From Streptomyces sp. JJ66 (GTDB taxonomy: Bacteria > Actinomycetota > Actinomycetes > Streptomycetales > Streptomycetaceae), in contig NZ_JAEVFI010000001.1 in NCBI RefSeq assembly GCF_019303495.1, positions 62,001 to 126,000 of the forward strand: 64,000 bases of DNA. The letters are read 5' to 3'. The position numbers and the translations under genes were made by a program. Shown here piece after piece: positions 5,130-31,654 of this stretch (positions are counted from its first letter, which is position 1; each line of letters starts with the position of its first letter). The notes beneath the pieces are model-generated. The model made no database searches and was not told the DNA's origin. It saw only the letters and a program-made list of their open reading frames with translations.

Positions 5130-6082
5130 GTGCGCTCACCTCACCGCCCCGCACGACCGCGCAGCCAGTCGCGGCCTGGGACTTCGGGGACTTTCCCTAC
5201 GGTCTGGAGCCGTTGGTGATGCCCCCCGTCGGCCAAGCCCCCGCCGACGCGGAACACCAGCCCCTGACCGTACCCCCGTGCGATCCGGAACGGGTGTGCG
5301 TGGAGCTGTCGGTGCTCTCCGGCCAGGAGCCTGCCGGCCCTGCCCTGCTCGCGGCACCGCCCATCGCCGCCTACGACCAGCTGTTCTGGTTCCGGTGGAT
5401 CACCGGCCACCAGGTGACCTTCGCACTGTGGCACCTGACGGGCCGCCTGATCGCCGAGGCATCCGCGCACGGGGCTCCCCAGCCGGGTGTACTGGAACGG
5501 CTGGAAACCTACACCCACGCGTACTGCGCCATGCTGCTGTACAGCGGATCGTGTCCACGCGGCGTCTACCAGAGTCTGATCCGGCCGGTGATGTTCCTCC
5601 AGCACCGGGCGTTCAGTGGCACCTGGGCTCCCGACTTCGCGCCAGTGCGCGCCCTGTACCGCGGTCGGCCGCTACCGTGGCTGAACGACGAGCGGGCCGC
5701 CGGGCTGCGGGCCGCGATCGACACCCACCGCGCGGTCCATGACAGCGTCGCCGCCCGCCTGGTGCCCAGCGGGCACTCGCTGCTCCAGCAGACGATGGCC
5801 CAGACGCCGGTCCGTCCCTCCGAGCGGACCGCCGCGCTCTACGACAACTTCTTCATGACCCTGCGCGGCCCGGTGTCCGACGCCGCCGTGGCCGCCCAGC
5901 TGCTGCGCAGACTGCGGGCGGTAGCCCTCGACCTGGCCGGCAACGGTCTGTACCCGCTGGGCCGGGACGACGACGCCGAGGTCTGGCACGGCTCGGTGGC
6001 CGCCTGCGAACGCCGCATCGGAGCGATCCTGCCCGAGGCCGCGCGCCACGCCGCCCGGCTGGTGGACGGGCCGAAGCGCTGA
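5126..6082 (+). CDS. Tyrosine 3-hydroxylase, heme-dependent (LmbB2/SibU type)
   Basis: 318-residue member of the histidine-ligated heme hydroxylase group (LmbB2, anthramycin Orf13, SibU, SfmD), which converts L-tyrosine to L-DOPA. It shows the family core YSGSCPRGVYQSLIRP followed by MFLQHRAFSG, near residues 135-165, and a His-rich helix GHQVTFALWH near residue 100. There is no pterin or P450 signature. The ATG at 5126 overlaps the stop of the dioxygenase. Longer upstream frames only run through the preceding gene. Its partner gene and position make the assignment strong. Confidence 0.85.
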   Translation: MSALTSPPRTTAQPVAAWDFGDFPYGLEPLVMPPVGQAPADAEHQPLTVPPCDPERVCVELSVLSGQEPAGPALLAAPPIAAYDQLFWFRWITGHQVTFALWHLTGRLIAEASAHGAPQPGVLERLETYTHAYCAMLLYSGSCPRGVYQSLIRPVMFLQHRAFSGTWAPDFAPVRALYRGRPLPWLNDERAAGLRAAIDTHRAVHDSVAARLVPSGHSLLQQTMAQTPVRPSERTAALYDNFFMTLRGPVSDAAVAAQLLRRLRAVALDLAGNGLYPLGRDDDAEVWHGSVAACERRIGAILPEAARHAARLVDGPKR

Positions 6083-6137: not shown

Positions 6138-7025
6138 ATGCGCCACGGAGTGCTGCTGCTGCCCGAACACCGCTGGTCACGAGCCCGGGAGCGCTGGCTG
6201 CTGGCCGAGGAGCTCGGTTACGACCACGCCTGGACCTACGACCACCTGATGTGGCGCTGGTTCCACGACCGGCCCTGGTTCTCGGCCGTCCCCACCCTGG
6301 CCGCCGCTGCCGAGGCCACCTCCCGCATCGGCCTGGGCACGCTGGTGGCCAGCCCGAACTTCCGGCACCCCGTGGACTTCGCCAAGGAGCTGGTCACCCT
6401 CGACGACGTCTCGGGCGGCCGGATCGTGTGCGGGGTGGGCGCCGGGGCCGACGGCTACGACGCCCGGCTGCGCGGTGACCGCCCCCTGAGCCAAAAGCAG
6501 CGCGCCGCCCGGTTCGGGGAGTTCGTCGAGCTGCTGGACCTGCTGTTGAGCCACCGGCACACCAGCTTCGCCGGCCAGTGGTACACGGCCACCGACGTGG
6601 TGGTGGAACCCGCGTGCGTCGCCCGGCCGCGCCTGCCGCTCGCGGTGGCCGCCGCCGGGCCCCGGGGCATGGCGCTCGCGGCCCGGCACGCCGACATCTG
6701 GGTCACCAGCGGGCCGCCGAACGTCTTCGAACCCGAGCGCTACGACCGGCTGGTGCCGCTGCTCAAGGATCAGCTGGCCGCATTGGACGCGGCGTGCGCG
6801 GCCCAGGGACGGAACCCGGACACACTGCGCCGCCTGCTGCTGACCGACGCCGCGGTGGGCGGCGTCCTGGAGTCCACCGGGTCCTACCAGGACGCGGCCG
6901 GGACCTTCGCGGACCTCGGCTTCACCGATCTCGTCGTGCACTGGCCCCGCCCGGACTTCCCGTACGCGGGAAGCGAAGAGGTGCTGACGGAGTTCGCCGC
7001 CGCCGAGCTGGGAGGTAACCGATGA
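6138..7025 (+). CDS. F420-dependent LLM-class oxidoreductase (LmbY/SibT type)
   Basis: 295-residue luciferase-like TIM-barrel protein. Conserved stretches include AEELGYDHAWTYDHL, TSRIGLGTLVASPNFRHP and LVTLDDVSGGRIVCGVGAG, which mark F420-dependent enzymes. In PBD and lincomycin pathways such a protein reduces the double bond of the alkyl-proline intermediate and sets the final saturation of the ring. AAAGGAGAG is the ribosome site, 7-15 nt before the ATG. It is coupled by ATGA overlap to the PhzF-like gene. The saturation it gives here cannot be read from sequence. Confidence 0.82.
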   Translation: MRHGVLLLPEHRWSRARERWLLAEELGYDHAWTYDHLMWRWFHDRPWFSAVPTLAAAAEATSRIGLGTLVASPNFRHPVDFAKELVTLDDVSGGRIVCGVGAGADGYDARLRGDRPLSQKQRAARFGEFVELLDLLLSHRHTSFAGQWYTATDVVVEPACVARPRLPLAVAAAGPRGMALAARHADIWVTSGPPNVFEPERYDRLVPLLKDQLAALDAACAAQGRNPDTLRRLLLTDAAVGGVLESTGSYQDAAGTFADLGFTDLVVHWPRPDFPYAGSEEVLTEFAAAELGGNR

Positions 7026-7891
7026 CGTGCCCGTTCGAGGTGGTCGGGATGTTCGGCACCCGGCCGGGCGGGGGCAGCCCGCTGGCCGTGGTCCACGACG
7101 CCGACGGGCTGGATGACACCACCCTGCGCCGGATGAGCGGCCTGCTGCGCACCGACGAGACCGTGTTCGTCCTGCCACCCACCACGGCGGACGCCACCCA
7201 CCGGGTCCGGGTCTTCACCGCGCGCGGGGAGTCGCCCCACGGCGGCCACTCGGCGGTGGGCACGGCGGTGGCGCTGGTCCGCTCCAGACGGCTGGCGCCC
7301 GGACGCGTCGTCCAGCAGTGCGGGGAAAGCCTGCTGGAGCTGGAGGCGGACGCCCGGCAGGCGACGGTCACCGCTGCCGGGCCATGGCCGAGTCGCGCGC
7401 TGGAGGCCGGGCCGCTGCTGGACGCCGTCGGACTGCGCGAGCGGGACCGCGCGCCGGGTTCGGTGCTGGCCGCCGGGTTCGGCCCGCTGTTTCACCTGCT
7501 GCCCGTGCGCGCCGACGCGGTGTCCGCCGCCCGGCCCGACGAGGCGGCCATGGCGGAAGGCGGACTGCCGGACGTCTTCGTCTTCCACTGGGACGAGGGC
7601 TCGCGCACCGCCACCGCGCGGCTCTTCGCCCCCGGGTACGCCATCGGGGAGGACCCGGCGTGCGCGTCGGTCGCGCTGGCGCTCGGGGTGTGGCTGGCGG
7701 ACCGCGAGCTGACCAGCGCGCAGGGCGCGTTCCGCATCGAGCAGGGAGCCGAGCTGGGACGCCCCGCCGTGCTGGAGGGCACGATCAGCGGCGGGAGCGC
7801 GGGCGGTCTCACCGTGACCGTCACCGGCCAGGCGCCCCGGGAACTGGCCGGTCACCTCGCTGTACCGGCCCCGGACCCCACCGCGGCCTGA
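7022..7891 (+). CDS. PhzF-like isomerase (LmbX/SibS type)
   Basis: 289-residue protein with the PhzF diaminopimelate-epimerase-like double fold. It has FGTRPGGGSPLAVV at the N-terminus, the substrate-pocket segment GESPHGGHSAVGTAVAL near residues 69-85, and the second-half motif EDPACASVALALGVWL near residue 217, matching the DPATGSA region of PhzF. The family isomerises a diene intermediate in the 4-alkyl-proline pathway. It is translationally coupled to the LLM gene. The following gap of 119 nt is non-coding. Confidence 0.82.
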   Translation: MTCPFEVVGMFGTRPGGGSPLAVVHDADGLDDTTLRRMSGLLRTDETVFVLPPTTADATHRVRVFTARGESPHGGHSAVGTAVALVRSRRLAPGRVVQQCGESLLELEADARQATVTAAGPWPSRALEAGPLLDAVGLRERDRAPGSVLAAGFGPLFHLLPVRADAVSAARPDEAAMAEGGLPDVFVFHWDEGSRTATARLFAPGYAIGEDPACASVALALGVWLADRELTSAQGAFRIEQGAELGRPAVLEGTISGGSAGGLTVTVTGQAPRELAGHLAVPAPDPTAA

Positions 7892-8010: not shown

Positions 8011-9804
8011 TTGTCGCGTCCCGAACTCCACGGCACCCGAGGTGCCGTGTCCACCACCCACTGGCTGGCGTCCGCCTCGGGCGCCGCCATGTTCGATGAG
8101 GGCGGGAACGCCTTCGACGCCGCGGTCGCCGCGGCGTTCGTCATCCAGGTCGTCGAGCCGCACCTGAACGGTCCGGCCGGGGACGTGCCGATCCTCGTGC
8201 ACGACGGGCGGCGCGGCACCGTGGATGTCATCTGCGGGCAGGGCCCGATGCCTGCGGGCGCGACGGTCGAACACTTCCGCGGCCTCGGGCTGCGGGCCGT
8301 CCCCGGGGCCGGGCTGCTGGCGGCATGCGTGCCGGGGGCTTTCGGCGCGTGGCTCACGCTGCTGCGCGACCACGGGCGGCTGCCGCTGGCGACCGTCCTG
8401 GCCCCCGCCGTGCACTACGCGCGCGAGGGGTTCCCGCTGCTGCCGAAGGCCGCGGCGATGATCGAGGTCATGGCTCCGCTGTTCCGCGCCGAGTGGCCCG
8501 AGTCCGGCGCGGCGTACCTGCGGCCGGACGGCAGCGCCCCGCGTGCCGGGGAGCTGCTGCGGAACCCGGCGCTGGCCGCCACCTACGAACGGCTGCTGGC
8601 CGAGGCCGCGACGGCGCGCGGAGGCCGGGAAGCAGGCATCGAGGCGGCGCTGCGCGGCTTCTACGAGGGATTCGTGGCCGAGGCGATCGACCGGTACGCC
8701 CCCCGTACTGCGGTGCTCGACGCCACCGGGCACCGCAACCAGGGGGTGCTCAGCGGCGCCGACCTGGCTGGCTGGCGGCCCCCGGTGGAGGCTCCGGTGG
8801 CACGCGAGTACCGGGGACACCTGGTACACAAACCGGGGCCGTGGTCGCAGGGGCCGGTGTTTCTCCAGCAGCTCGCGCTGCTGGAGGGTGCCGGGCTGGA
8901 TACCGTTCGGTTCGGCTCGGCCGACCACCTGCACACCGTGGTGGAGGCCGCCAAGCTGGCCTTCGCCGACCGGGAGGCGTGGTACGGCGACCCCGCGTTC
9001 ACCGACGTCCCGCTGGAAGGTCTGCTGGATGCCGGCTACGCCGCCGAACGGCGTGCGCTGATCGGGCGGGAGGCGTCCGCCGAACTGCGGCCCGGCTCCC
9101 CCGCCGGGCGCCCGCCCCGTCTGCCGGACCTGGCCGGGGACCCGGACGTGCGACGCGGCCATGGCTGGCGCGACCAGCTCGCCGACGGCATCCCGGCTGT
9201 CGTCCTGCTCTCCCAGGCCAAGGGCGACACCTGCTGCGTGACGGCCTCGGACCGGGAGGGCAACATGGTCGCGGCCACACCCAGCGGCGGCTGGCTGAAG
9301 AGTTCACCGGTGGTCCCGGGGCTCGGCTTTCCCCTCGGCACCCGGGGACAGATGGCCTGGCTGGACCCCGGACACCCCAACGCCCTGGCCCCGGGCAAGC
9401 GACCGCGCACGACCCTCAGCCCCTCGCTCGTGCTGCGCGACGGGGCGCCGTACCTGGCCTTCGGCACACCCGGCGGCGATCAGCAGGACCAGTGGACGCT
9501 CAACGCGTTCCTCGCCCACGTCGACTTCGGCCTCGGCCCGCAGGAAGCGGTGGAGGCCCGCACGTTCCACACCGATCACGTCCCGTCGTCGTTCACGCCC
9601 CGCACGTTCCGGCCCGGCACGCTGGTGGCCGAGCGGGGGTTCGACGCCGCGGTGCTCGCCGAGCTGCGCGCCCGTGGACACGAGGTGCGCGAGGTGGAAG
9701 CCTGGTCCCTGGGCAAGGTGTGCATGTCCGGGGCCCGGGCCGACGGCGGCGTGCTGGCTGCCGCCAGCCCACGGGGCCGGCAGGCGTACGCCGTGGTCCG
9801 GTAG
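8011..9804 (+). CDS. Gamma-glutamyltransferase-like C-C bond hydrolase (LmbA/SibY type)
   Basis: 597-residue protein of the GGT Ntn-hydrolase fold. In these pathways the enzyme removes an oxalyl-type fragment from the pyrroline intermediate rather than acting on glutathione. The large-subunit region has GGNAFDAAVAAAFV near residue 32. The autocatalytic site is in KGDTCCVTASDREGNM near residues 404-419, where the Thr of DTCC is the expected nucleophile after self-cleavage. The TTG start at 8011 is chosen because GCAGGAGG lies 5 nt upstream; there is no nearby ATG or GTG with such a site. It is the last gene of the operon. Confidence 0.83.
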   Translation: MSRPELHGTRGAVSTTHWLASASGAAMFDEGGNAFDAAVAAAFVIQVVEPHLNGPAGDVPILVHDGRRGTVDVICGQGPMPAGATVEHFRGLGLRAVPGAGLLAACVPGAFGAWLTLLRDHGRLPLATVLAPAVHYAREGFPLLPKAAAMIEVMAPLFRAEWPESGAAYLRPDGSAPRAGELLRNPALAATYERLLAEAATARGGREAGIEAALRGFYEGFVAEAIDRYAPRTAVLDATGHRNQGVLSGADLAGWRPPVEAPVAREYRGHLVHKPGPWSQGPVFLQQLALLEGAGLDTVRFGSADHLHTVVEAAKLAFADREAWYGDPAFTDVPLEGLLDAGYAAERRALIGREASAELRPGSPAGRPPRLPDLAGDPDVRRGHGWRDQLADGIPAVVLLSQAKGDTCCVTASDREGNMVAATPSGGWLKSSPVVPGLGFPLGTRGQMAWLDPGHPNALAPGKRPRTTLSPSLVLRDGAPYLAFGTPGGDQQDQWTLNAFLAHVDFGLGPQEAVEARTFHTDHVPSSFTPRTFRPGTLVAERGFDAAVLAELRARGHEVREVEAWSLGKVCMSGARADGGVLAAASPRGRQAYAVVR

Positions 9805-9875: not shown

Positions 9876-10745
9876 TCAGACTCCTGTGCCCGCCAGGGCG
9901 CGGCGGACGTCTTCGGCGGCGTAGTACGTGCGTCCGGCCAGACGGCGCCGGTCCCAGTTGCGTTCGCTGGCCAGCCGGTACACGCTGCCCCGCGGTATGC
10001 CCCACAGGGCGGTGACGTCGGCGGAGCTGAGCCAGCGCGGCGCCCGGCGGGTGTGTGCGGTGTCCTGCGCCGACGCTGGTCCGCCCCGGGCGTCAGCGGC
10101 CCGGGACGCGGCCGCTAGCCGGTCCGCTCCGCTCCAGTTGTGCTCCGGGTCGGCGTCGCAGGTGGCGTGGGCTGGACGGTGCCGTCCACGGGCCCCGCGC
10201 GCGGTGAGCCGTCCGTCGCAGCCGGGCGCGGGGCAGGGGCCCAGGACGCCCCGCGCGGGGCTCTCCTCGGGGCGGGCGACGCGCCGCGTCTGCTCGACCA
10301 GCCGGGCCGTCTCCTCGGCGAACTCCCCGGCGGCCGGGTGGCGGACGACGAAGCCGAGCCGCTCGTGCAGGAAGGCGCACAGGTCCGGCACACAGCGCCG
10401 GGGCGGCCGCGTGCCCGTGCCCTGCACGACCAGCCCGGCCCAGGAGGACAGGACAGCGAGCACGCCGTGGCGCACGTCCGCCGCACCGGCGTGCAGCAGC
10501 GACGCGGGGCCGCGTCCCGGAGCCGGGGGCCTGGTCCACGCCGGGGCGGCGCCGCGCAGGTGGCGCTCGCCGCACTCGCGGTAGAGCGACGGCAGCCGGG
10601 TCAGATCGGCGGCCAGACGGCTCCGGCATTCCAGGCACAGCCGGGTCCCGAGAACGGCCCGGCCGCCGCCCACGGCGGAGTCCGCGCACCGCGGACCCGC
10701 GCAGCGCTCTCCGTCCTGACAGCCGGTCACCTGCGCCATGGTCAT
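9876..10745 (-). CDS. Cys-rich helix-turn-helix protein, putative regulator
   Basis: 289-residue protein. The N-terminus carries several Cys pairs (CQDGERCAGPRC, then CLEC near residue 43) and there is a second group CPAPGC about two-thirds along, suggesting zinc sites. The C-terminal 60 residues contain a MerR/excisionase-like HTH (WLSSADVTALWGIPRGSVYR) with a wing ending YYAAEDVRRAL. The start at 10745 is supported by GGGAGAAGAA directly before ATG; an ATG two codons later is possible. It is divergent from the kynurenine operon and next to its promoter box, so it may control that operon. No exact family name is claimed. Confidence 0.6.
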   Translation of the reverse strand: MTMAQVTGCQDGERCAGPRCADSAVGGGRAVLGTRLCLECRSRLAADLTRLPSLYRECGERHLRGAAPAWTRPPAPGRGPASLLHAGAADVRHGVLAVLSSWAGLVVQGTGTRPPRRCVPDLCAFLHERLGFVVRHPAAGEFAEETARLVEQTRRVARPEESPARGVLGPCPAPGCDGRLTARGARGRHRPAHATCDADPEHNWSGADRLAAASRAADARGGPASAQDTAHTRRAPRWLSSADVTALWGIPRGSVYRLASERNWDRRRLAGRTYYAAEDVRRALAGTGV

Positions 10746-11084
10746 TTCTTCTCCCTTGCCGCCGTCGGATTCCCGCGCGCGGATTCCCCCGCGGGCGATT
10801 TCGCGTTCGCTCCCGCATCTTTCCCGAAGCCGGGCGCCTTCCGCAGGCGAAAGCGACACTGGGCAGCCTCGTGAGGAGATCCTGAGAAGCCCGTGCAGAT
10901 TCTCTGACACAGCCCTGAAAATCCCTTGACCGAGCCACTGTTGACGCGTTCCGCGCGGCGAAGATAGACATCTCTACAGTGCGCTTCGACTGTGCCCACC
11001 AGCCGTCCGGCGGGGTCCCCCAGCGGTACCCGTCAGCCCTCGGTACGGCGGGGGCACCACCACGCAAGACGAGGAGCACCACCA
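10746..11084. other. Divergent regulatory region between HTH gene and kynureninase
   Basis: 339 nt without a convincing gene. It contains the box at 10941-10970 for the plus-strand operon. A second TTGAC lies at 10926-10930. No clear promoter for the minus-strand gene was picked out. Confidence 0.45.
10941..10970 (+). promoter_or_regulatory. Candidate promoter of the kynurenine/sugar operon
   Basis: TTGACG at 10941-10946, an 18-nt spacer and TAGACA at 10965-10970. The spacer holds the same GCGGCGAAGATA string, at the same offset, as the box at 4273-4302. It is about 115 nt before the kynureninase start. Confidence 0.5.
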
Positions 11085-12302
11085 GTGGAATTCACTCGCG
11101 AGTGGGCGGAAAAACGCGACGCTGAGGACCAGCTCTCCGGATTCCGGGAAGAATTCGCGCTGCCCGCAGGTGTCATCCAGCTGAACGGCAACTCACTGGG
11201 ACCGCTGCCGCGTGCGGTGCCCGGTGCGCTGGACCAAGTGGTGCGGCGGGAGTGGGGCGAGCACCTCATCCGCGGCTGGTTCGAGGACGGTTGGTGGGAC
11301 GCGCCGGAACGGGTCGGAGACCGCGTCGGGCGGCTCGTGGGCGCCGCGCCCGGACAGACCGTCGTCGGTGAGTCGACATCGGTGCAGCTGTTCAACGCGC
11401 TGACGGCCGCGGCCCGGCTGCGGCCGGAGCGCACCGTGCTCGTCTCGGACGCGGGCAACTTTCCCACCGACCGCTACCTGGCCGTCTCCGTCGCCCGGAT
11501 GCTGGGGCTCCGGCTGGTCCAGACGCCGGTCGCCGCCCTGCCAAAGGTGCTGGAGCGGCACCGCGGCGAGGTGGGGGCGGTGCTCGCCGGGGCGGTGGAC
11601 TTCCGCACCGGCGAGCTGTGGGACGTCGCGGCGCTGACCGCGCGGGTGCGGGACGCCGGCGCGGTGACGGTGTGGGACCTCAGCCACGCGGCCGGCGCGG
11701 TACCGCTCCACCTCGACGAGGCGGGCGTGGACCTGGCGGTGGGCTGCGGCTACAAGTACCTGTGCGGCGGACCCGGAGCACCAGCGTTCCTGTACGCGGC
11801 GGCCCGGCACCACGAGGCGCTGGACCTGCCCGTCACCGGCTGGCACGGCCACGCGCGGCCCTTCGAGATGGCCGACACCTTCGTCCCCGCCCCCGGCATC
11901 GCGCGGGCCCGGACCGGCACGCCGCACCTGCTGTCCCTGCTCGCGCTGGAGGCCGCCCTCACTCCGCTGGAGGCCGCCGGGGTTGCCGCTGTCCGCGAGA
12001 AGAGCCTGCGGCTGGGCGACTACCTGATGAGCCTGGTGGACGGGGCGGGCACCACCACGCGGACGCGGGAACGCACCGGTGCGTGGCCGGAGGTGGTCAC
12101 GCCGCGGGCACCCGCACGGCGCGGCAACCAGGTCACGCTGCGGCATCCCCGCGCCCCGCGCCTGTCGGCCGAGCTGATGGCGCGCGGGGTGGTGACCGAC
12201 GCGCGCCCGCCGGACCTGATCCGGCTGTGCCTGAACGGACTGTACGTCTCCTACACGGACGTCTTCGACGCCGTGACGCACCTGCGGGAGGTGACCCGGT
12301 GA
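11085..12302 (+). CDS. kynU: Kynureninase
   Basis: 405-residue PLP enzyme that splits (3-hydroxy)kynurenine to (3-hydroxy)anthranilate and alanine. It shows VIQLNGNSLGPLPRAVPGAL near residue 30, the phosphate-site region GQTVVGESTSVQLFNAL, and the PLP lysine in CGYKYLCGGPGAPAF (Lys about 224). Here it supplies the aromatic half of the PBD; in sibiromycin it acts after ring methylation. The GTG at 11085 follows GAGGAG at a good distance; upstream codons are not conserved-looking. The stop overlaps the GTG of the dioxygenase gene. Confidence 0.9.
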   Translation: MEFTREWAEKRDAEDQLSGFREEFALPAGVIQLNGNSLGPLPRAVPGALDQVVRREWGEHLIRGWFEDGWWDAPERVGDRVGRLVGAAPGQTVVGESTSVQLFNALTAAARLRPERTVLVSDAGNFPTDRYLAVSVARMLGLRLVQTPVAALPKVLERHRGEVGAVLAGAVDFRTGELWDVAALTARVRDAGAVTVWDLSHAAGAVPLHLDEAGVDLAVGCGYKYLCGGPGAPAFLYAAARHHEALDLPVTGWHGHARPFEMADTFVPAPGIARARTGTPHLLSLLALEAALTPLEAAGVAAVREKSLRLGDYLMSLVDGAGTTTRTRERTGAWPEVVTPRAPARRGNQVTLRHPRAPRLSAELMARGVVTDARPPDLIRLCLNGLYVSYTDVFDAVTHLREVTR

Positions 12303-13120
12303 ACCAGCACAACCGGCACGACCAGCACGGCCAGCACGACCAGCCCAACCAGTATGTCGCCTACGCCCGCATGGACGCGCTGCACGCACTCCAGGAACCG
12401 CGCACCTCCTCGCCGTTCGAGATGTCGTTCATCTTGATCAGCCAGGTCAAGGAGCTGCTGTTCCGGATGGTGCACCTGGAGGCCGACCAGGCCCGCGCCC
12501 GCCTGGCCGAGGACCGCCCCGAGGCCGCCTGCCGGGCACTGACCCGCACGGTGCGCAACCAGCGCGTCCTGACCGGGTGCTGGGAAAGCATGAACGCGAT
12601 GCCCGCCGATGAGTTCCTCGGCTTCCGGGACACCCTCGGCCAGGCGTCCGGCACGCAGTCGTTCATGTACCGGCTGCTGGAGTTCACCCTCGGCAACCGG
12701 GCGACGGCCGTGGTGCGTTCCGCGGACCTCACCGCCTTCCCGGTCCTGCGTGCAGAGCTGGGGCGCCCGAGCCTGTACGACGAGGTACTGCGCTTCCTCG
12801 CCCGCCGCGGGCTGCCCGTACCCGAGTCCGTGGTCGCACGCGATCCGGCCGTCCCGTACACACCTCACGACGCGGTCGAGAAGGTCTGGCTGAGCGTGTA
12901 CCACGATCCGGACGGACATCGCGCGGCCTACGACCTCGCCGAACAGCTCCTGGAGGTCGCCTACCAGTTCTCCCGCTGGCGGGCCACCCACCTGCTGGTG
13001 GTGGAGCGGATGCTCGGCGGCAAGCGCGGCAGCGGCGGCAGCGACGGCGCGGCGTGGCTGCGCACCGTCAACGAGCACCGGTTCTTCCCCGAACTGTGGA
13101 CCATGCGCTCTCTGCTGTGA
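12299..13120 (+). CDS. kynA: Tryptophan 2,3-dioxygenase with Ser at the distal heme position
   Basis: 273-residue heme enzyme that opens L-tryptophan to N-formylkynurenine. It has FRDTLGQASGTQSFMYRLLE near residue 105 and the C-terminal heme-ligand region SRWRATHLLVVERMLG, then HRFFPELW. The first 19 residues are rich in His, Gln and Asn. The usual distal motif HQ is replaced by SQ (Ser48 in FILISQVKELLF), as in indoleamine dioxygenase, and the usual ELWF is ELLF. The GTG start overlaps the kynureninase stop. All other core motifs are intact, so activity is expected. Confidence 0.9.
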   Translation: MNQHNRHDQHGQHDQPNQYVAYARMDALHALQEPRTSSPFEMSFILISQVKELLFRMVHLEADQARARLAEDRPEAACRALTRTVRNQRVLTGCWESMNAMPADEFLGFRDTLGQASGTQSFMYRLLEFTLGNRATAVVRSADLTAFPVLRAELGRPSLYDEVLRFLARRGLPVPESVVARDPAVPYTPHDAVEKVWLSVYHDPDGHRAAYDLAEQLLEVAYQFSRWRATHLLVVERMLGGKRGSGGSDGAAWLRTVNEHRFFPELWTMRSLL

Positions 13121-13255: not shown

Positions 13256-13996
13256 ATGAACGAACTCGGCCTCGTCATGGGGCAGGAAGCCTACGCGGCC
13301 GCCGTGGCCCAGCAGGACCGCGAGCTGGAGTTCACGCTGCTGGGCCGTCAGTGGCACCAGCTCAGCGGGGTGCTGGGCGGCGAGTACAACCACGCCACCG
13401 GCCTGTTCGCGTCCTGGCTGCCGCACGCGGGCGTGCGGCGCATGCTGGAGATGGGCTGCGGCTGCGGCGTCGCCTCCGTCGTCGCGGCGCTGGAGGGCGT
13501 GCCGGAGGTGACCGCGCTGGACATCAACCCGGCGGCCGTGCGGACGACCGAGCTGAACGCCCGCCGCCACGGGGTGGCCGACCGTGTCCGTGCCCGCGTC
13601 AGCGACCTGTTCGCGGCCGTGCCGCCCACGGACTCCTTCGACCTGATTTTCTGGAACTCGCCGTTCATCGAGACGCCACCGGGCCAGGCGCACGACTCCG
13701 ACCTCGCCTACCACTTCTTCGACCCGGGCTACACCCTGCACCAGCGGTTCCTCACCGAGTCGGCCCGCCGGCTCACCCCCGGGGGCCGGCTGTTCCTGGG
13801 GTTCAGCCACGCGATGGGCAACGCCGGCCGGCTCCGCGAGGTGGCCGGTGCGGCCGGGTTCACGGTGCGGACCTACCGGCAAGAGGCGTTCGACGTCCCC
13901 GCCGCGGAACTCGGCTCGTCGCCGGTGTACGCCACGCACGCCGACGCGGCCGGACAGATCCGGATCGACTTCACCCTGCTGGAGCTGCGCCGATGA
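13256..13996 (+). CDS. Class I SAM methyltransferase, possibly sugar N-methyltransferase
   Basis: 246-residue protein with a Rossmann SAM site (RMLEMGCGCGVASVV, residues 62-76) and acidic strand TALDINPAAV. After strand 4 it has FWNSPFIETPPG (NSPF 134-137), the position of the NPPY/NPPF motif seen in N-methyltransferases of the RsmC/HemK type. It overlaps the 4-aminotransferase gene by ATGA, so methylation of the sugar amino group is the preferred reading. The alternative is the C-methyltransferase that lengthens the pyrroline side chain (LmbW/SibZ role). A GAAGGGA site supports the ATG. Confidence 0.6.
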   Translation: MNELGLVMGQEAYAAAVAQQDRELEFTLLGRQWHQLSGVLGGEYNHATGLFASWLPHAGVRRMLEMGCGCGVASVVAALEGVPEVTALDINPAAVRTTELNARRHGVADRVRARVSDLFAAVPPTDSFDLIFWNSPFIETPPGQAHDSDLAYHFFDPGYTLHQRFLTESARRLTPGGRLFLGFSHAMGNAGRLREVAGAAGFTVRTYRQEAFDVPAAELGSSPVYATHADAAGQIRIDFTLLELRR

Positions 13997-15186
13997 CCAC
14001 CACACCCGTGACGGCACCCACCGTGCCGTTCCACGTGCCGCACGTCGCCGAGCGCCAGGACGCCTACCTGCGCCACGTCCTGGAGACCGGGGAGCTGGAC
14101 GGGGACGGCCCCTACACCGCTCGCGCCACCGAACTGCTGGAGCGGCTGACGGGCTCCCCGCACGCCCTGCTGACGCCCTCGTGCACCCACGCACTGGAGA
14201 TCGCGGCGCTCCTGCTGGACCTCGCCCCGGGCGACGAGGTGGTGATGCCCTCGTTCACGTTCGCCCCCACCGCGAGCGCCTTCGCCCTGCGCGGCGCCGT
14301 GCCCGTCTTCGTTGACTGCCGACCCGACACGCTCAACCTCGACGAGACGCTCCTGGAGGCGGCCATCACCGACCGCACCCGGGCGATCGTCGCCGTGCAC
14401 TACGCGGGCGTGGCCTGCGAGATGACAGCGATCGAACGCGTCGCACGGGATAGGGGCCTGCCCGTGATCGAGGACAACGCCCACGGCCTGGGCAGCAGTT
14501 ACCACGGCAGACCGCTGGGCGGCCTGGGGACGCTTGCGGCGCTGAGCTTCCACGCCACGAAGAACGCGCACTGCGGCAAGGGCGGGGCGCTGCTGGTCAA
14601 CGACGAGACGCTTGCCGACCGGGCCACCATCATCCGGGACCGGGGCACCAACCGGCGGCAGTACTTCCAGGGACGGGTGGACAAGTACCGCTGGGTGGAC
14701 CTGGGTTCGAGTTACATCCTGCCGGAGCTGCTGGCCGCGCTGCTGGCGGCCCAGCTGGAGGAGTTCGAGGTGATCCAGCGACACCGGCACGCGGTGTGGC
14801 ACCACTACCAGACGCGGCTGGCCGACTGGGCCGGGCGGGAAGGCGTCGCGCTGCCCACCGTACCGCCCGGCCGCACCCACTCGGCACACCTGTACCACCT
14901 GGTGCTGCCGTCCGCGGCGGACCGCGCGGCGCTGCTGTCCCACCTGGCCGAGCGCGGGGTGCGGGCCACGTTCCACTTCCAGCCGCTGCACACCTCGCCC
15001 GCCGGGCTGCGGCACGGGCGCACAGCTCCGGGCGGCTGCCCGGTCTCCGAGCGGGTGGCCGACCGGCTGGTGCGGCTGCCGCTGCATACGGGGCTCGACG
15101 AGGCCCAGGCCGAGCGGGTCGTCGCGGCCCTGCGTTCCTTCCGCACCGGCGCGACGGGCGCCGCCGACCGAGAGGACTGGTCATGA
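13993..15186 (+). CDS. WecE-type NDP-4-keto-6-deoxyhexose 4-aminotransferase
   Basis: 397-residue DegT/DnrJ/EryC1-family PLP enzyme. It has LTPSCTHALEIAALLLDL near residue 56, EVVMPSFTFAPTASAF near residue 80, IEDNAHGLGSSYHGRPLG near residue 157, and the PLP lysine in SFHATKNAHCGKGGAL (Lys190). The FHxTKN motif is that of WecE/RffA, which aminates C4 of dTDP-4-keto-6-deoxyglucose. Context supports a role in making a 4-amino-4,6-dideoxyhexose. It is coupled at both ends by 4-nt overlaps. Confidence 0.85.
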   Translation: MTTTPVTAPTVPFHVPHVAERQDAYLRHVLETGELDGDGPYTARATELLERLTGSPHALLTPSCTHALEIAALLLDLAPGDEVVMPSFTFAPTASAFALRGAVPVFVDCRPDTLNLDETLLEAAITDRTRAIVAVHYAGVACEMTAIERVARDRGLPVIEDNAHGLGSSYHGRPLGGLGTLAALSFHATKNAHCGKGGALLVNDETLADRATIIRDRGTNRRQYFQGRVDKYRWVDLGSSYILPELLAALLAAQLEEFEVIQRHRHAVWHHYQTRLADWAGREGVALPTVPPGRTHSAHLYHLVLPSAADRAALLSHLAERGVRATFHFQPLHTSPAGLRHGRTAPGGCPVSERVADRLVRLPLHTGLDEAQAERVVAALRSFRTGATGAADREDWS

Positions 15187-16448
15187 CCGAGGACGCCGTC
15201 CGGTTCGTCACCCGCTGCCGGGTCTGCGGGGCCGGGGAGTGGCAGGAGGTGATCTCGTTCGGCCGGGTGCCGCTGGCCAACGGCTTCCTGGAGCCCGCCG
15301 CCACCTATCCCGACGAGCCCGCCTACCCGCTGGAGGTCGTCTCGTGCCGGTCGTGCCGCCTGCTGAGTCTGACCGCCGTGGTGGACCCGCAGGTGCTCTA
15401 CCGCACCTACTCCTATGTCACCTCCGACTCCGAAACGATGGCCCGGCATCTGCGCGAGGTCGTGCGCCTGCTGCGGGACCGTTTCGCGCTGCCCGCCAAC
15501 GCGCTGGTCGTCGAACTCGGCAGCAACACCGGGGACCAGCTGCTGGCGTTCCGTGCCGCCGGGGCCCGGGTGGTGGGGGTGGACCCCGCCCGCAACCTGG
15601 CGGCGATCGCGGAGGACCGCGGGGTGCCTACCGTCCCGGAGTACTTCGACTCGGCCACGGCGCGCGCCGTCGCCGACGAACACGGGAAGGCCGCGCTGAT
15701 CCTGGGCCGTCACGTCTTCGCCCACATCGACGACCTGGCCGACGTACTGGCCGGGGTGCGTGAACTGCTCGCCGAGGACGGGGTGTTCACCGTCGAGGTC
15801 CCCTACGCGGTCGATCTGCTGGAGGGACTGGCGTTCGACACCATCTACCACGAGCATCTGTCGTACTTCCTGATCAGCACACTCGACACGCTGTTCGCCC
15901 GGCACGGGCTGCGTACGCTGCACGTCGAGCGCCTGGCGGTGCACGGCGGCTCGGTTCTGGTGTCGGCGGGACACGCCGAGGGGCCGTGGCCCACCGGACG
16001 CGGCGTCGGCGAGCTCATCGAGCGGGAGCGCTCCGGCGGCCTCTTCGACGACGCGGCCTACACCGAGTTCGCCGCCCGGGTGCGCGACACCTGCGCGCGG
16101 CTGTCCAACCTGGTGCGGCGGCTGACCTCCGACGGGCGCACCGTGGCCGCGTACGGGGCGTCGGCCAAAGGCACCACCCTGCTGAACGTGTGTGGGCTGA
16201 GCAGCGAGGAGATCGCCTTCTGTACCGACACCACCCCGCAGAAGCAGGGCCGTGTCACGCCCGGCACGCACATCCCCGTCCTGGCGCCCGAGGCGGTCAC
16301 CGCCCCGCCGGACTACTACCTGCTGCTGGCCTGGAACTACGCCGAGGAGATCATGCGCAAGGAATCCGACTACCTGCGGGCGGGGGGCGGCTTCGTCGTC
16401 CCCGTACCCGAACCCGTGGTCCACGCGTGGACGGAGGCGGGGCGATGA
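15183..16448 (+). CDS. NDP-sugar C-methyltransferase (TylC3-type)
   Basis: 421-residue protein with the three-part build of sugar C-methyltransferases. An N-terminal zinc site (CRVCGAGEW and CRSCRLLSL) leads into LANGFLEPAATYPDEPAYPL. The SAM domain has VVELGSNTGDQLLAFRAAGA, and the C-terminal domain begins near VAAYGASAKGTTLLN. The family methylates C3 (or C5) next to a 4-keto group. The motif set FDTIYHEHLSYF, with the catalytic His/Glu region, is present. With a 3-OH retained (no 2,3-dehydratase gene seen), a 3-C-methyl branched sugar such as that of sibiromycin is expected. Confidence 0.85.
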   Translation: MTEDAVRFVTRCRVCGAGEWQEVISFGRVPLANGFLEPAATYPDEPAYPLEVVSCRSCRLLSLTAVVDPQVLYRTYSYVTSDSETMARHLREVVRLLRDRFALPANALVVELGSNTGDQLLAFRAAGARVVGVDPARNLAAIAEDRGVPTVPEYFDSATARAVADEHGKAALILGRHVFAHIDDLADVLAGVRELLAEDGVFTVEVPYAVDLLEGLAFDTIYHEHLSYFLISTLDTLFARHGLRTLHVERLAVHGGSVLVSAGHAEGPWPTGRGVGELIERERSGGLFDDAAYTEFAARVRDTCARLSNLVRRLTSDGRTVAAYGASAKGTTLLNVCGLSSEEIAFCTDTTPQKQGRVTPGTHIPVLAPEAVTAPPDYYLLLAWNYAEEIMRKESDYLRAGGGFVVPVPEPVVHAWTEAGR

Positions 16449-17557
16449 CCTCCGTCACGACGACGGGCGACGACGCGAGCCGGGACCCGGACCGCACGCC
16501 TGAGGCGGCCGGGCACGACGCGGCGGAGAACCTGGGCCAGCTCGTGCCCGTGCTGTTCGGCTACGCGGCGTTCCAGCAGCTCAACGCGGGCTGCGCACTG
16601 GGGCTGTTCGACCTGCTGGAAACCGAAGGACCGCTCCCGGCCGCCAAGGTGGCCGACTCGCTCGGCCTGACGCCCCGGGCGGCCGACACCCTGCTGCTGG
16701 GCACCACGGCGCTCGGACTGACCAGTGTCACCGAGAGCGGCTACCGCAACGGACCGCCGGTGGCCGCGGCGTTCGCGGCACACCTGTGGCCGGTGCTGCG
16801 CGACATCGTGGAGTTCCAGGACCGGGTGTCCTACCTGCCGGCCGCGGACTACGCCGAGTCCCTGCGCACGGGCGAGAACGCCGGCATCCGCCACTTCCCC
16901 GGCGAGTCCCGCGACCTGTACACGCGGCTTGCGGGCGTGCCCGGTCTGGAGGAGCTGTTCTACCGCTGCATGCACTCCTGGTCGCGGCTGTCGAACCCGG
17001 TACTCATCGAGGACACCGACTTCTCGGGCGCCACCCGGGTGCTGGACGTGGGCGGCGGTGACGCGGTCAACGCCCTCGCCCTCGCCCGCGCCCACCCCGA
17101 GCTGCGCATCACCGTACTCGACCGGCCCGGCGCGCTGGAGGTGGCCGATCGCAACATCCGCGAGGCCGGTCTGGCCGACCGCGTCACCACCAGCGCCGCC
17201 GACATCTTCGGTGACCCCTACCCGGGCGGGCACGACTGTGTGCTGTTCGCCCACCAGCTGGTGATCTGGTCGCCCGAGCAGAACCGCACCCTGCTGAAGA
17301 AGGCGTACGACGCCGTGGAACCGGGCGGGCGGGTGCTGGTGTTCAACGCCTTCAGCGACGACGACGGGGCCGGGCCGCTGTACGCGGCGCTGGACAACGT
17401 GTACTTCACCACCCTGCCGTTCCGGCACTCCACCATCTACCGCTGGGCGGAGCACGAGGGCTGGCTGCGGGACGCGGGGTTCACCGACATCACCCGCACC
17501 CGCGGACACGGCTGGACCCCGCACGGCGTGGTCAGCGGACGCCGTCCGACGCCGTGA
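16445..17557 (+). CDS. Methyltransferase of the hydroxyindole-O-methyltransferase fold (SibL-like role proposed)
   Basis: 370-residue protein with an N-terminal winged-helix dimerisation domain (FQQLNAGCALGLFDLLETEG) and a C-terminal SAM domain (RVLDVGGGDAVNALALARAH near residue 197, LRITVLDRPGAL). In sibiromycin and actinomycin pathways a methyltransferase methylates C4 of 3-hydroxykynurenine. The direct coupling of this gene to kynurenine formamidase fits that job. O-methylation of the phenol or C-methylation of the pyrroline unit cannot be excluded from sequence alone. Confidence 0.72.
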   Translation: MTSVTTTGDDASRDPDRTPEAAGHDAAENLGQLVPVLFGYAAFQQLNAGCALGLFDLLETEGPLPAAKVADSLGLTPRAADTLLLGTTALGLTSVTESGYRNGPPVAAAFAAHLWPVLRDIVEFQDRVSYLPAADYAESLRTGENAGIRHFPGESRDLYTRLAGVPGLEELFYRCMHSWSRLSNPVLIEDTDFSGATRVLDVGGGDAVNALALARAHPELRITVLDRPGALEVADRNIREAGLADRVTTSAADIFGDPYPGGHDCVLFAHQLVIWSPEQNRTLLKKAYDAVEPGGRVLVFNAFSDDDGAGPLYAALDNVYFTTLPFRHSTIYRWAEHEGWLRDAGFTDITRTRGHGWTPHGVVSGRRPTP

Positions 17558-18408
17558 CCGCCTCGCACCGTATCGGGGCCCGCCGTCAGGCGTGGGACGC
17601 GGAGCTGTCCCCCAGCACCCGGGCGCGCGACGCCCGGGGCACGCTGGCGCGGTACCGGACGCGGAGCCTGGCCGCGCTGCGCGAGCTACGCCACCGTGCG
17701 AACGTGCCCTACGGACCCCACCCGGCGGAGCGGCTGCACCACTTCCCACCGCACCAGCCGGGGGCGCCGCTGGTGGTGTTCGTCCACGGCGGGCACTGGC
17801 AGGAGTCCAGCAAGGACGACGCCTGCTTCGCCGCGCCCGCGCTGCTGGCCGCGGGCGCGGGGTACGTGGCGCTCGGCTACGGCCTGGCGCCCGCCCGCCG
17901 CCTGCCGGAGATGACCGCGTCCGTGTACCGCGGCCTGAGGTGGGTGCGGGAGAACGCCGCGCGGCTCGGCGGCCGCGCGGACGCCGTGTACGCGGCGGGA
18001 AGTTCGGCCGGAGCGCACCTGGTGGCGATGGCCACCGCAGACCGCGACGGTGTGCCCCTCGCCGGGACAGTACTGCTGAGCGGCCTGTACGACCTGCTGC
18101 CGGTGGTTGACAGCTACGTCAACGACGCGCTGGGGCTGGATGCCGCCACGGCCCGGCAGCTCAGCCCGCTGTACCGCCGGGCGCCGCGCGCCGGGCACGT
18201 ACTGCTGGCCCGCGGGCAGCACGAGACCGACGAGTACGCCCGGCAGCAGGACCGGTTCGCTTCGGCGCTACTGGCCCGGGGACACCCGGCCCGCGTCCTG
18301 GTCGCCGAAGACCGCGACCACTTCGACCTGCCGCTGGACCTCGGCGACCCCGCGACGGTGCTGGGCCGCACGGTGCTGGACCTGCTGGCGCACGGCCCCG
18401 GCCGCTGA
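17554..18408 (+). CDS. Kynurenine formamidase (arylformamidase)
   Basis: 284-residue alpha/beta hydrolase that removes the formyl group from N-formylkynurenine. It carries HGGHWQESSKDD near residue 77, the HGGxW oxyanion motif of the arylformamidase branch. The nucleophile is in YAAGSSAGAHLVAMA (Ser151) and a C-terminal acid/His region is at EDRDHFDLPL. The GTG at 17554 overlaps the stop of the methyltransferase gene. It completes the tryptophan-to-kynurenine route. Confidence 0.85.
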   Translation: MTASHRIGARRQAWDAELSPSTRARDARGTLARYRTRSLAALRELRHRANVPYGPHPAERLHHFPPHQPGAPLVVFVHGGHWQESSKDDACFAAPALLAAGAGYVALGYGLAPARRLPEMTASVYRGLRWVRENAARLGGRADAVYAAGSSAGAHLVAMATADRDGVPLAGTVLLSGLYDLLPVVDSYVNDALGLDAATARQLSPLYRRAPRAGHVLLARGQHETDEYARQQDRFASALLARGHPARVLVAEDRDHFDLPLDLGDPATVLGRTVLDLLAHGPGR

Positions 18409-18503: not shown

Positions 18504-19145
18504 ATGCGGACACGGGAACTCGCCGTCGCCGGGGCCGTGGAAGTCACACCCCCGGCGTTCGAGGACGAGCGCGGCCTGTTCAGCCCGCTGTACCAGGAGG
18601 GTGACACCCCATGGGCGGGGGGCGCGGCGCGGGAACCGTTCCGCGTCGCCCGCACGGCGCTGAGTGTCAACCGGGCGGGTGTAGTGCGCGGCGTGCACTA
18701 CACCCGCCCGGAGGCGGTGGGCACCGCCAAGGTGGTCTTCTGCCCCGCGGGTGAGGTGCTGGACCTGGTGGTGGACGTGCGCGAGGGCTCGCCCACCTTC
18801 GGCCACTGGGACTCCCTGCACCTCGCCTCCGGCCGGCCACGCGCCCTGTACTGCCCGCCAGGGGTGGGGCACGCCTTCGTGTCGCTGGCCGAGGAAAGCG
18901 TCCTGGTGTATCTGCTCTCCACCCCCTACCGACCCGAGGACGACCTGGCCGTCACGGTGTACGACCCCGTGCTGGAGCTGCCCGTACCGAGGCGTCGGGA
19001 CGCGCTGATGTCGCCACGGGACCGGGCCGCGCCGACGCTCGCCGAGGCCCGCGCGCGCGGGCTGCTGCCGCCGTACCGGGAGACCGGCGCGACGAAGACC
19101 GCGCCCACCTCCGAAACCGCCGACCGAAGGAGGACGCAGGCATGA
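18504..19145 (+). CDS. RmlC-like dTDP-4-keto-6-deoxyhexose epimerase
   Basis: 213-residue cupin of the RmlC family. Visible motifs are FEDERGLFSPLY, the base-containing VRGVHYTRP (His65), CPAGEVLDLVVDVREGSPTFG and the Tyr-containing LVYLLSTPYRPEDD. Members either invert C3 and C5 or C3 only (the TylJ/ChmJ type). A D-configured sugar such as sibirosamine would require C3 only. The C-terminal motif reads VYDPVLELPVP rather than the usual WNDP, so it is somewhat divergent. GACAGGAGG precedes the ATG. It overlaps RmlA by ATGA. Confidence 0.82.
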   Translation: MRTRELAVAGAVEVTPPAFEDERGLFSPLYQEGDTPWAGGAAREPFRVARTALSVNRAGVVRGVHYTRPEAVGTAKVVFCPAGEVLDLVVDVREGSPTFGHWDSLHLASGRPRALYCPPGVGHAFVSLAEESVLVYLLSTPYRPEDDLAVTVYDPVLELPVPRRRDALMSPRDRAAPTLAEARARGLLPPYRETGATKTAPTSETADRRRTQA

Positions 19146-20107
19146 AGGGCATCATCATGGCCGGCGGGTCCGGCACCCGGCTCAAACCACTGACCGGGGT
19201 GCTCTCCAAGCAACTGCTGCCCGTCTACAACAAGCCGATGGTCTACTACCCGCTGTCGGTGCTCATGCTGGCCGGGATCAGGGACATCCTGATCATCTCC
19301 TCCCCCGCCCACCTCCCGCTCTTCCGTGCGTTGCTGGGCGACGGCAGCCACCTGGGGCTGCGGCTGGACTACGCCGAGCAGGCCCACCCCGGCGGCATCG
19401 CCGAGGCGTTCCTCATCGGCGCCGACCACATCGGCGCCGACGCGGTCACCCTGGTGCTGGGCGACAACCTCTTTCACGGCCCCGGATTCTCCGCGCTGCT
19501 GCGCGAGCGGGCGCGGCGGCTGGAGGGCTGCACGCTGTTCGGCTACCCGGTGCGCGACCCGCAGCGCTACGGCGTCGCGGAGATCGACGCGGCGGGGCGG
19601 CTGATCGGCGTCGAGGAGAAACCGCGCAAGCCACGGTCCGAACTGGCCGTCACCGGCCTGTACATGTACGACCGGCACGTGGTGGACATCGCCCGGGGTC
19701 TGACCCCCTCGGCGCGGGGAGAGCTGGAGGTCACCGACATCAACCAGGCGTATCTGGAGCGCGGCCAGGCCGAACTGGTGCAGCTCGGACGCGGTTTCGT
19801 GTGGCTGGACACCGGGACGCACGACGCGCTGCTGGAGGCCGGGCAGTACGTCCAGATCCTGGAGCAGCGCCAGAGCGTGCGTATCGCCTGCGTCGAGGAG
19901 ATCGCCTACCGGATGGGCTTCATCGGGGCGGGCCGCCTGCTGCGGCTGGGCCGGGAACACGCCGACACCGATTACGGCACCTACCTCGTGGAGCTCGCCG
20001 AACGCTCCGCGCGGGACCAACAGGTGCCCCACGCTCCGCCACCCGGCCTCGTCGCCGACCCCACAGGCCTGCCCCCGTTCGCGGCGACCCGCTCGCCGGG
20101 ACCCTGA
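19142..20107 (+). CDS. rmlA: Glucose-1-phosphate thymidylyltransferase
   Basis: 321-residue nucleotidyltransferase making dTDP-glucose from glucose-1-phosphate and dTTP, the entry to the deoxysugar branch. It opens MKGIIMAGGSGTRLKPLT, followed by SKQLLPVYNKPMVYYPLS, and has VLGDNLFHG near residue 106 and WLDTGTHDALLEA near residue 221. It is somewhat longer than the usual 290 residues, with an extra Pro-rich C-terminal tail. It is probably dedicated to the cluster, as the paired dehydratase lies at 34454. Confidence 0.9.
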   Translation: MKGIIMAGGSGTRLKPLTGVLSKQLLPVYNKPMVYYPLSVLMLAGIRDILIISSPAHLPLFRALLGDGSHLGLRLDYAEQAHPGGIAEAFLIGADHIGADAVTLVLGDNLFHGPGFSALLRERARRLEGCTLFGYPVRDPQRYGVAEIDAAGRLIGVEEKPRKPRSELAVTGLYMYDRHVVDIARGLTPSARGELEVTDINQAYLERGQAELVQLGRGFVWLDTGTHDALLEAGQYVQILEQRQSVRIACVEEIAYRMGFIGAGRLLRLGREHADTDYGTYLVELAERSARDQQVPHAPPPGLVADPTGLPPFAATRSPGP

Positions 20108-20158: not shown

Positions 20159-21343
20159 GTGCGTTTCCTGTTCACCTCCATGCCCGTCTCCTCGCACCTG
20201 ATGCCGCTGGTGCCGCTGGCGCACGCCGCCCAGGCGGCCGGTCACGAGGTGCTGGTGGCTACCTGCGGCCCCGGCACGCGCACCGCCGTGGCCGCGGGCC
20301 TGGTCACCGCCGACGCCGGTGCCGCCCAGGACGCGCGGGAGCCGTACGACGAGCTGCTGCGTACCCTGGAGCGCGGCCAGGCCGGTTCCGCTCCCGATGA
20401 CGCCACCTCCCTGGCCGTGCACGGCGCCGCCTTCGGGGAAGTCGGGGCCCGCATGCTGGACGACCTGGTGTCCCTCGCCCGCGACTGGGACGCCGGCGCC
20501 GTGGTCTACCCCGGCATCCACTCCGCCGCGCTGGTCGCCGCCCGCGCCGCCAACATACCCGCCGTCCTGCACGGGTACGGGACGCCGCTGCCCACCTTCG
20601 GCCCGGCCCTTGAGTACCTGGCGCCGCACGCCGAGCGCTTGGGCGTGGAGAAGGTGACCGAGGCGGAGATCGAAATCGACGTCCTGCCCGGGTCGCTGGC
20701 GAACTTCACCGACGTGCCCAGTGCCATTGGCCGCCCGGGGCACCGGCTGCCGATGCGGTACGGCTGCTTCAACAACGGCGGCACGCTGCCGCACTGGGCG
20801 CTGCGCCGCGGTGAGCGCCCGCGGGTGGTGGCCACCTGCGGCTCGTCGGCCAGCATGACCCGCGACGGCGCCCTCTACCGCGACATCATGCTGGCCACCG
20901 AACGGCTGGGGGCGGAGATGGTGCTGCTCACCGCGGACGCCGACCTGCCCGAGCTGCCCGCCACGCTGCCACCGCACGTGCGGCCGGAGCGCTGGCTGCC
21001 GCTGCGGCCCCTGCTGGACCGCTGCGACGCGATCGTCCATCACGGCGGTTCGGGCACCGTGCTGAGCGCGTTCGCCGCGGGCCTGCCACAGGTGGCGCTG
21101 CCGATGCCGGGCACGGTGAACGTCAGCAACGCGCAGACCGTCTCCGCCCGGGGCGCGGGGCCGACGCTCGACATCGACGCGGACGCCGGTCCCGAGGCGG
21201 TCACCGACGCGCTGGAGCGGGTGCTGCACGACGCGGCGCCCCGTCGTGCCGCCGCCGAGGTGGCGCGCGAGATGGCCGCCATGCCCGCCCCGGCCACCGT
21301 CGTCCACCAGGTCACCGAACGCATCGGCGCGGCACGGGCCTGA
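20159..21343 (+). CDS. Antibiotic glycosyltransferase (GT-1 / UGT-like)
   Basis: 394-residue GT-B enzyme. It starts MRFLFTSMPVSSHLMPLVPL, and has the C-terminal donor-binding region WLPLRPLLDRCDAIVHHGGS and LPQVALPMPGTVNVSNA. Activator-assisted enzymes of this group usually need a P450-like partner; none is present in the cluster. It should attach the aminosugar to a phenol of the PBD. The hydroxyl made by the neighbouring FAD enzyme or by the kynurenine monooxygenase is the likely acceptor. The GTG start at 20159 has TAAGGAG 7-13 nt upstream. Confidence 0.85.
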   Translation: MRFLFTSMPVSSHLMPLVPLAHAAQAAGHEVLVATCGPGTRTAVAAGLVTADAGAAQDAREPYDELLRTLERGQAGSAPDDATSLAVHGAAFGEVGARMLDDLVSLARDWDAGAVVYPGIHSAALVAARAANIPAVLHGYGTPLPTFGPALEYLAPHAERLGVEKVTEAEIEIDVLPGSLANFTDVPSAIGRPGHRLPMRYGCFNNGGTLPHWALRRGERPRVVATCGSSASMTRDGALYRDIMLATERLGAEMVLLTADADLPELPATLPPHVRPERWLPLRPLLDRCDAIVHHGGSGTVLSAFAAGLPQVALPMPGTVNVSNAQTVSARGAGPTLDIDADAGPEAVTDALERVLHDAAPRRAAAEVAREMAAMPAPATVVHQVTERIGAARA

Positions 21344-21391
21344 CACCGCGGCGCCGCCGCCATGACGCGTCCAAAGAGCGAGGAGGAGCAC

Positions 21392-24940: not shown

Positions 24941-24965
24941 GCCACCGGCGGCGACGGCACCGCCT

Positions 24966-25006
24966 GGGGCCCGGTCCCCCGACATGGCGTCGGGGGACCG
25001 GGCCCC
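24966..25006 (+). terminator. 18-bp hairpin after the resistance gene
   Basis: A perfect 18-bp stem (24966-24983 with 24989-25006) and a 5-nt loop lie 26 nt past the UvrA-like stop and 101 nt before the first NRPS gene. It should separate resistance from NRPS transcripts, or attenuate read-through. Confidence 0.75.
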
Positions 25007-25106
25007 GTCGCGTCCACGGCCCCGGGCGGAGCCGCGGACACGCTTCCCATGCCGCTCCCCCCGCCGCCGGACGGGGCCCACCTCACCGATCACTGCTGGA
25101 GGACAC

Positions 25107-31590: not shown

Positions 31591-31654
31591 GCGGCAACGG
31601 GGGCGGTGCGAGCCAGTGAGGCCGTCCGCCGACTTTCGACGGAAGGACGCCACC

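Follow-up and report, generated by a model that had tools for sequence, protein, structure and literature searches.

A putative sugar N-methyltransferase and a predicted two-carbon side chain in a sibiromycin-type pyrrolobenzodiazepine cluster of Streptomyces sp. JJ66

Pyrrolobenzodiazepines (PBDs) of the sibiromycin type are antitumour antibiotics that bind DNA. PBDs are used as payloads of antibody-drug conjugates, and the sugar at C7 and the side chain at C2 tune their DNA binding. In the sibiromycin cluster (sibA-Z) of Streptosporangium sibiricum, SibP is a tryptophan 2,3-dioxygenase (TDO) and SibL the aromatic methyltransferase (PMC4194701), while SibF is a UvrA protein (PMC5958127). A complete cluster of this type has four methyltransferases, including the LmbW homologue SibZ. 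LmbW proteins are ~350 aa long and related to MrsA and MppJ (PMC4780272), and both tomaymycin, whose cluster has no LmbW, and lincomycin made with lmbW deleted contain two-carbon units (PMC4780272, PMC3874040). Here we describe a PBD cluster in which a 246-aa methyltransferase with an NSPF motif is very probably the sugar N-methyltransferase of a sibiromycin-type PBD whose side chain, without LmbW/SibZ, would have two carbons.

Gene content of the cluster

We analysed a stretch of 64,000 nucleotides of Streptomyces sp. JJ66 (the window), in which the PBD cluster spans ~34 kb (3287-37175). The cluster sits on an unbroken 460-kb contig of a 4.84-Mb genome, which is small compared with the 5.5-11 Mb of sampled genomes of the same genus, although it is 99.98% complete. 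Annotation of the cluster genes by Pfam, NCBIfam and PDB searches gave the following features.

4626-5129 (+): LmbB1-type L-DOPA 2,3-dioxygenase (translation; tblastn 69-74% to Streptomyces sugar-PBD clusters)
5126-6082 (+): LmbB2-type tyrosine hydroxylase (orthologues in APD loci, up to 69%; no Pfam match)
6138-7025 (+): LmbY-type F420-dependent reductase (PF00296, E 8e-43)
7022-7891 (+): LmbX-type PhzF-fold isomerase (PF02567, E 1.6e-33)
8011-9804 (+): LmbA-type gamma-glutamyltransferase homologue, contiguous with LmbX (PF01019, E 2.2e-112; gene order)
10992-12302 (+): kynureninase (PF22580, E 3.2e-23)
12299-13120 (+): TDO, SibP position (PF03301, E 4.3e-47)
13256-13996 (+): NSPF methyltransferase, HemK/MTS-type, SibO position as judged from gene letters (Pfam MTS; PDB relatives; orthologues in 11 sugar-PBD clusters)
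13993-15186 (+): DegT/WecE-type sugar 4-aminotransferase (NCBIfam NF008687, dTDP-4-amino-4,6-dideoxygalactose transaminase, 490 bits against a cut-off of 375)
15174-16448 (+): sugar C-methyltransferase, 3-C-methyl (PF08484, E 1.7e-50; PF08421, E 1.2e-17; also PF13489)
16436-17557 (+): SibL orthologue, 3-hydroxykynurenine C-methyltransferase for the aromatic methyl (PDB 4qvg, SibL, E 7.8e-177)
17554-18408 (+): kynurenine/aryl formamidase-like alpha/beta hydrolase (PF07859/PF20434; place matches por19/orf20 beside the SibL homologue)
18504-19145 (+): RmlC-type sugar epimerase (PF00908, E 5.6e-42)
19142-20107 (+): RmlA-type nucleotidyltransferase (PF00483, E 8.6e-65)
20159-21343 (+): EryCIII-type glycosyltransferase (PF06722, E 1.2e-28)
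21362-22483 (+): FAD hydroxylase, SibG position (PF01494; NCBIfam salicylyl-CoA 5-hydroxylase family)
22607-24940 (+): UvrA-like self-resistance protein, SibF position (PF17755/PF00005)
24597-26921 (+): ORF holding NRPS 1, A-PCP, SibE position (PF00501, E 3.5e-74; PF00550; true start inside the open frame)
26914-31590 (+): NRPS 2, C-A-PCP-R, SibD position (Pfam; A-domain code DVEFYTVLC, Val at 322)
31616-33097 (+): kynurenine 3-monooxygenase (PF01494, E 5.5e-24; beside the PBD NRPS as in porothramycin)
34460-35467 (+): RmlB-type dTDP-glucose 4,6-dehydratase (PF16363, E 8.1e-74)
35535-37175 (+): MFS transporter (PF07690, E 1e-46)

A conserved gene on the reverse strand between LmbA and the kynureninase (9876-10910) has no Pfam match, but is also represented in S. 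lichenis and in S. zingiberis, and is probably the regulator of the sibR position.

The cluster contains exactly three methyltransferases, namely, the NSPF enzyme, the sugar C-methyltransferase and the SibL orthologue, and Pfam scans detected no fourth methyltransferase domain in the remaining cluster genes, NRPS genes included. This agrees with an earlier note on this DNA, which had counted three methyltransferases, one fewer than sibiromycin needs, and had singled out the 246-aa enzyme with the NSPF motif, which we find to be an intact ORF. The same note had described one of the three as having a hydroxyindole-O-methyltransferase fold; that enzyme is present, and is more precisely the SibL orthologue.

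The NSPF methyltransferase and its genomic context

The ORF opens with ATG, and there is not a single N across the window. The start is likely ATG 13256 rather than the upstream GTG 13139, since the orthologues align over their full length from the same Met. The enzyme has the features of the HemK/MTS class, namely, an MTS domain (PF05175, E 6.9e-16), a motif I of the form E/D-x-G-x-G-x-G and an (N)PP(Y/F)-like motif IV. The latter, FWNSPFIE (residues 132-139), occupies the catalytic motif-IV position and follows strand 128-134 in the AlphaFold2 model (pLDDT 93.7). Among the PBD orthologues EMGCGCG (motif I) and NSPF are kept, and NSPFI is identical in all sugar-PBD orthologues within the alignment. 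However, we rejected the NSPF motif by itself as proof of N-methylation, as the motif varies among relatives (NTPF, NSNF and others). Among the solved structures in the PDB, the closest by sequence include the aminosugar enzymes AprI (apramycin N-methyltransferase, 23lq; E 1.7e-12) and GenN (gentamicin; E 4e-8), improving to E 4.5e-19 and 1e-12, respectively, with a 32-sequence profile, though these alignments cover the catalytic core alone (about 120-135 residues) at low identity. The top hits of a fold search with the model were N-methyltransferases, with the carbamoyl N-methyltransferase Asc-Orf2 the best, together with KMT9/N6AMT1 and PrmC. Full-length relatives (42-51%) are also found in NRPS loci in which we recognised no sugar genes, so the family alone cannot fix the substrate.

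By scanning genome contigs and with follow-up searches, we identified orthologues of the enzyme in 11 further sugar-PBD clusters at 53-78% identity, namely, those of Streptomyces calidiresistens, S. uncialis, S. sp. JHD 1, S. lichenis, S. zingiberis, Actinomadura craniellae, Thermomonospora echinospora, two Actinokineospora, Saccharothrix sp. S26 and a genome labelled G531. The S. zingiberis orthologue (L069:874-1680) contains within its catalytic domain a ~24-residue Asn/Gln/Glu-rich insertion (ENQENQANEENEENG...) that is absent from all others. A sister clade lies near NRPS genes (loci L105, L107, L108, L110, L112, L115, L117 and L119); in the two of these loci that we read, L105 and L107, the sister-clade gene stands between MFS-like and FAD oxidoreductase-like genes, and sugar genes were not recognised.

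The order TDO, NSPF enzyme, DegT aminotransferase, C-methyltransferase, SibL is constant in all sugar-PBD clusters, and the aminotransferase gene directly follows the NSPF gene in 12 of the 12 clusters, window included. Sugar-amine genes accompany the NSPF gene both with and without LmbW; on the other hand, no orthologue was found, and likewise no sugar genes, at no-sugar APD loci in the stretches read. Exactly three genes (O, N and M) lie between the SibP and SibL positions and five between the SibL and SibF positions. With three genes in the first interval, the NSPF enzyme would take the place of sibO, a placement made from the published gene letters only.

This context bears on the best-surviving alternative, that the enzyme methylates another target, such as a sugar hydroxyl, the C9 phenol or another amine. 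HemK/MTS-type substrates are varied, relatives occur in the NRPS loci mentioned above, and the best fold match acts on a carbamoyl group. However, the gene adjoins the sugar aminotransferase gene wherever a sugar-PBD cluster was found and is missing together with the sugar genes elsewhere, and sibiromycin requires a sugar N-methyl group, for which O is the gene that remains when the sib letters are assigned. We therefore consider another target improbable, and sugar N-methylation the preferred reading.

LmbW and residue 322 of the adenylation domain

We searched for LmbW with the HrmC/LmbW homologue of a hormaomycin-like locus (L081:3291-4334), whose best PDB matches are MrsA (2-ketoarginine methyltransferase) and MppJ. 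No LmbW homologue was found at E<=1e-5 in the whole host genome, whereas the same search recovered two sugar-PBD clusters as positive controls (E 8.7e-128 and 7e-111). The earlier note had named a fourth methyltransferase elsewhere in the genome as the finding that would speak against its prediction; a gene of the LmbW/SibZ type was not found in this 99.98%-complete assembly. The NSPF enzyme itself does not belong with the LmbW/SibZ C-methyltransferases, being 246 rather than ~350 aa long and matching the bait in a single 69-residue SAM-motif segment (E 3e-5), with no full-length similarity. LmbW is present in two clusters that also carry the NSPF orthologue: S. uncialis has it between MFS and LmbA (56%), and in G531 it lies next to LmbA (50%). 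The two genes thus serve different functions, and of the two it is LmbW that the window lacks. In the NSPF tree the clusters with LmbW fall in two separate places, indicating that LmbW was gained or lost without change in the NSPF enzyme. The window has the gene set of a two-carbon (tomaymycin-type) APD subcluster, with LmbB1, LmbB2, LmbY, LmbX and LmbA present and LmbW absent, and a gene-order comparison places LmbA in a five-gene block as at no-sugar, tomaymycin-like loci.

Other apparent LmbW candidates were rejected. L078:2597-3592, which lies beside APD genes and has a 66% relative in a hormaomycin-like locus, is MppJ-type (PDB MppJ, E 1e-119). The apparent pairs of LmbW and NSPF in Actinomadura flavalba (L118) and G679 (L210) also involve MppJ-type enzymes at a locus without APD genes; each of these NRPS loci combines an NSPF-type methyltransferase (52-55%) with an MppJ-type C-methyltransferase.

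We compared residue 322 of the A-domain in the window (26914-31590) and in loci L067, L068, L239, L241, L218, L219, L261-L264 and L267, together with the published SibD code VMFYTALV (PMC5730197). The residue is Ala in the set with LmbW (S. uncialis, G531 and published SibD), Val or Ile in eight sugar-PBD clusters that lack LmbW (the window, S. zingiberis, S. sp. JHD 1, A. craniellae, T. echinospora, two Actinokineospora and Saccharothrix), and Met in six PBD loci that have no sugar genes. Val occurs in the window as it does in S. zingiberis and S. sp. JHD 1. Ala322 is associated with LmbW (Fisher p 0.006; 0.022 without SibD), although these values overstate the number of independent events, since kinship links many of the entries that lack LmbW; in the A-domain tree, the Ala322 label must have changed at least twice to fit the well-supported branches. 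This post hoc pattern suggests that residue 322 may gate side-chain length.

S. lichenis and S. calidiresistens have Ala322 together with a displaced LmbA (59-60%), and the pocket rule would predict LmbW in both. Despite its Ala322, LmbW was not found in S. calidiresistens, whose assembly is fragmented into many contigs; in S. lichenis the contig breaks where LmbW would lie, and the gene may fall in the gap. This S. lichenis contig (end of L067) stops, after the MFS gene, within a gene that starts like metK (SAM synthetase), and LmbA begins close to the end of another contig (~95 bases; end of L216).

Proposed product and comparison with known systems

From the observed gene content, orthology, absence of LmbW and pocket correlation, we infer each enzymatic activity and the structure of the product. 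RmlA, RmlB, RmlC, the sugar C-methyltransferase and the DegT aminotransferase would build a 4-amino-4,6-dideoxy-3-C-methyl sugar (sibirosamine), the aminotransferase providing the amine that the NSPF enzyme, as a SAM-dependent enzyme of the SibO type, would then N-methylate at position 4. Without LmbW/SibZ, the oxalyl-bearing dioxygenase product would pass unmethylated to LmbA, and the resulting 4-ethylidene-type (two-carbon) proline unit would be loaded by the A-domain with the Val322 pocket. The predicted product is a kynurenine-derived PBD with a methyl group at C8, sibirosamine as its sugar and a side chain of two carbons at C2; compared with sibiromycin, it most likely lacks the third side-chain carbon.

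The product could instead be sibiromycin itself if the NSPF enzyme were the sugar N-methyltransferase and a non-homologous C-methyltransferase encoded elsewhere extended the side chain. The host genome does have many other methyltransferases, and APD genes can sit apart from the APD block, as in S. lichenis and S. uncialis; but the genome-wide search for an LmbW homologue was negative, LmbA keeps the block position seen at no-sugar loci, and the A-domain has Val322, making this alternative, too, improbable, and marginally more so than another target. Least credible of all is that the NSPF enzyme replaces LmbW/SibZ, so that the side chain has three carbons and the sugar amine stays primary. Although the cluster is one methyltransferase short for the two jobs and the enzyme has a general SAM-fold similarity to LmbW over 69 residues, it differs from LmbW in family and length, is found alongside a genuine LmbW in both S. 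uncialis and G531, was not found at the hormaomycin-like locus, which bears LmbW but no sugar genes, and is accompanied here by Val322, as in two other clusters that lack LmbW.

The earlier note had reasoned that sugar N-methylation by the NSPF enzyme would imply a two-carbon side chain, and side-chain extension by it an unmethylated amine. That logic was right, and the choice it left open can now be made for sugar N-methylation and the two-carbon chain. Its expectation of a new combination either way fares less well: the branch with the unmethylated amine and three-carbon chain is disfavoured, and novelty is a weak claim for the other branch, since seven other genomes share the gene complement and sibanomicin, the second natural glycosylated PBD, is possibly a two-carbon sibirosaminide; we know of no gene cluster for it. 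Sibanomicin (DC-102) has been named as a Micromonospora product (PMC9054317). The proposal turns an ambiguous annotation into a specific product prediction that can be tested by mass, and a single residue of the proline-loading domain may serve as an indicator of side-chain length. More speculatively, and with distinctly less confidence, these loci may represent a second widespread type of glycosylated-PBD cluster, combining a two-carbon chain, a kynurenine-derived ring A and a sibirosamine-type sugar in a product unlike every described PBD, with residue 322 (Ala versus Val/Ile/Met) co-evolving with gain and loss of LmbW so that side-chain length could be read from sequence.

Among known enzymes, AprI and GenN resemble the NSPF enzyme as aminosugar N-methyltransferases, but match its core only and act on other substrates. 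LmbW, HrmC, SibZ and Orf5, which represent the other candidate job in the cluster, share its SAM-dependent class I fold, but differ in size and in their relationship to MrsA and MppJ. Among known clusters, those of the tomaymycin/limazepine type (two-carbon APD) have the same five-gene APD block without LmbW, and the tomaymycin-like loci that we read have, like the window, a bulky residue at A-domain position 322. However, the sugar genes and the NSPF enzyme are absent from the stretches read, and tomaymycin and limazepine anthranilate derives from chorismate, as published, rather than from the kynurenine route of the window. The sibiromycin cluster agrees with the window in gene order between the SibV and SibD positions, to the extent that the published letters show it, and shares the SibL orthologue and the TDO-O-N-M-L arrangement; it differs from the window in having SibZ, in the place of LmbA, which adjoins LmbX in the window rather than lying at the SibY place, and in its A-domain code, VMFYTALV against VEFYTVLC.
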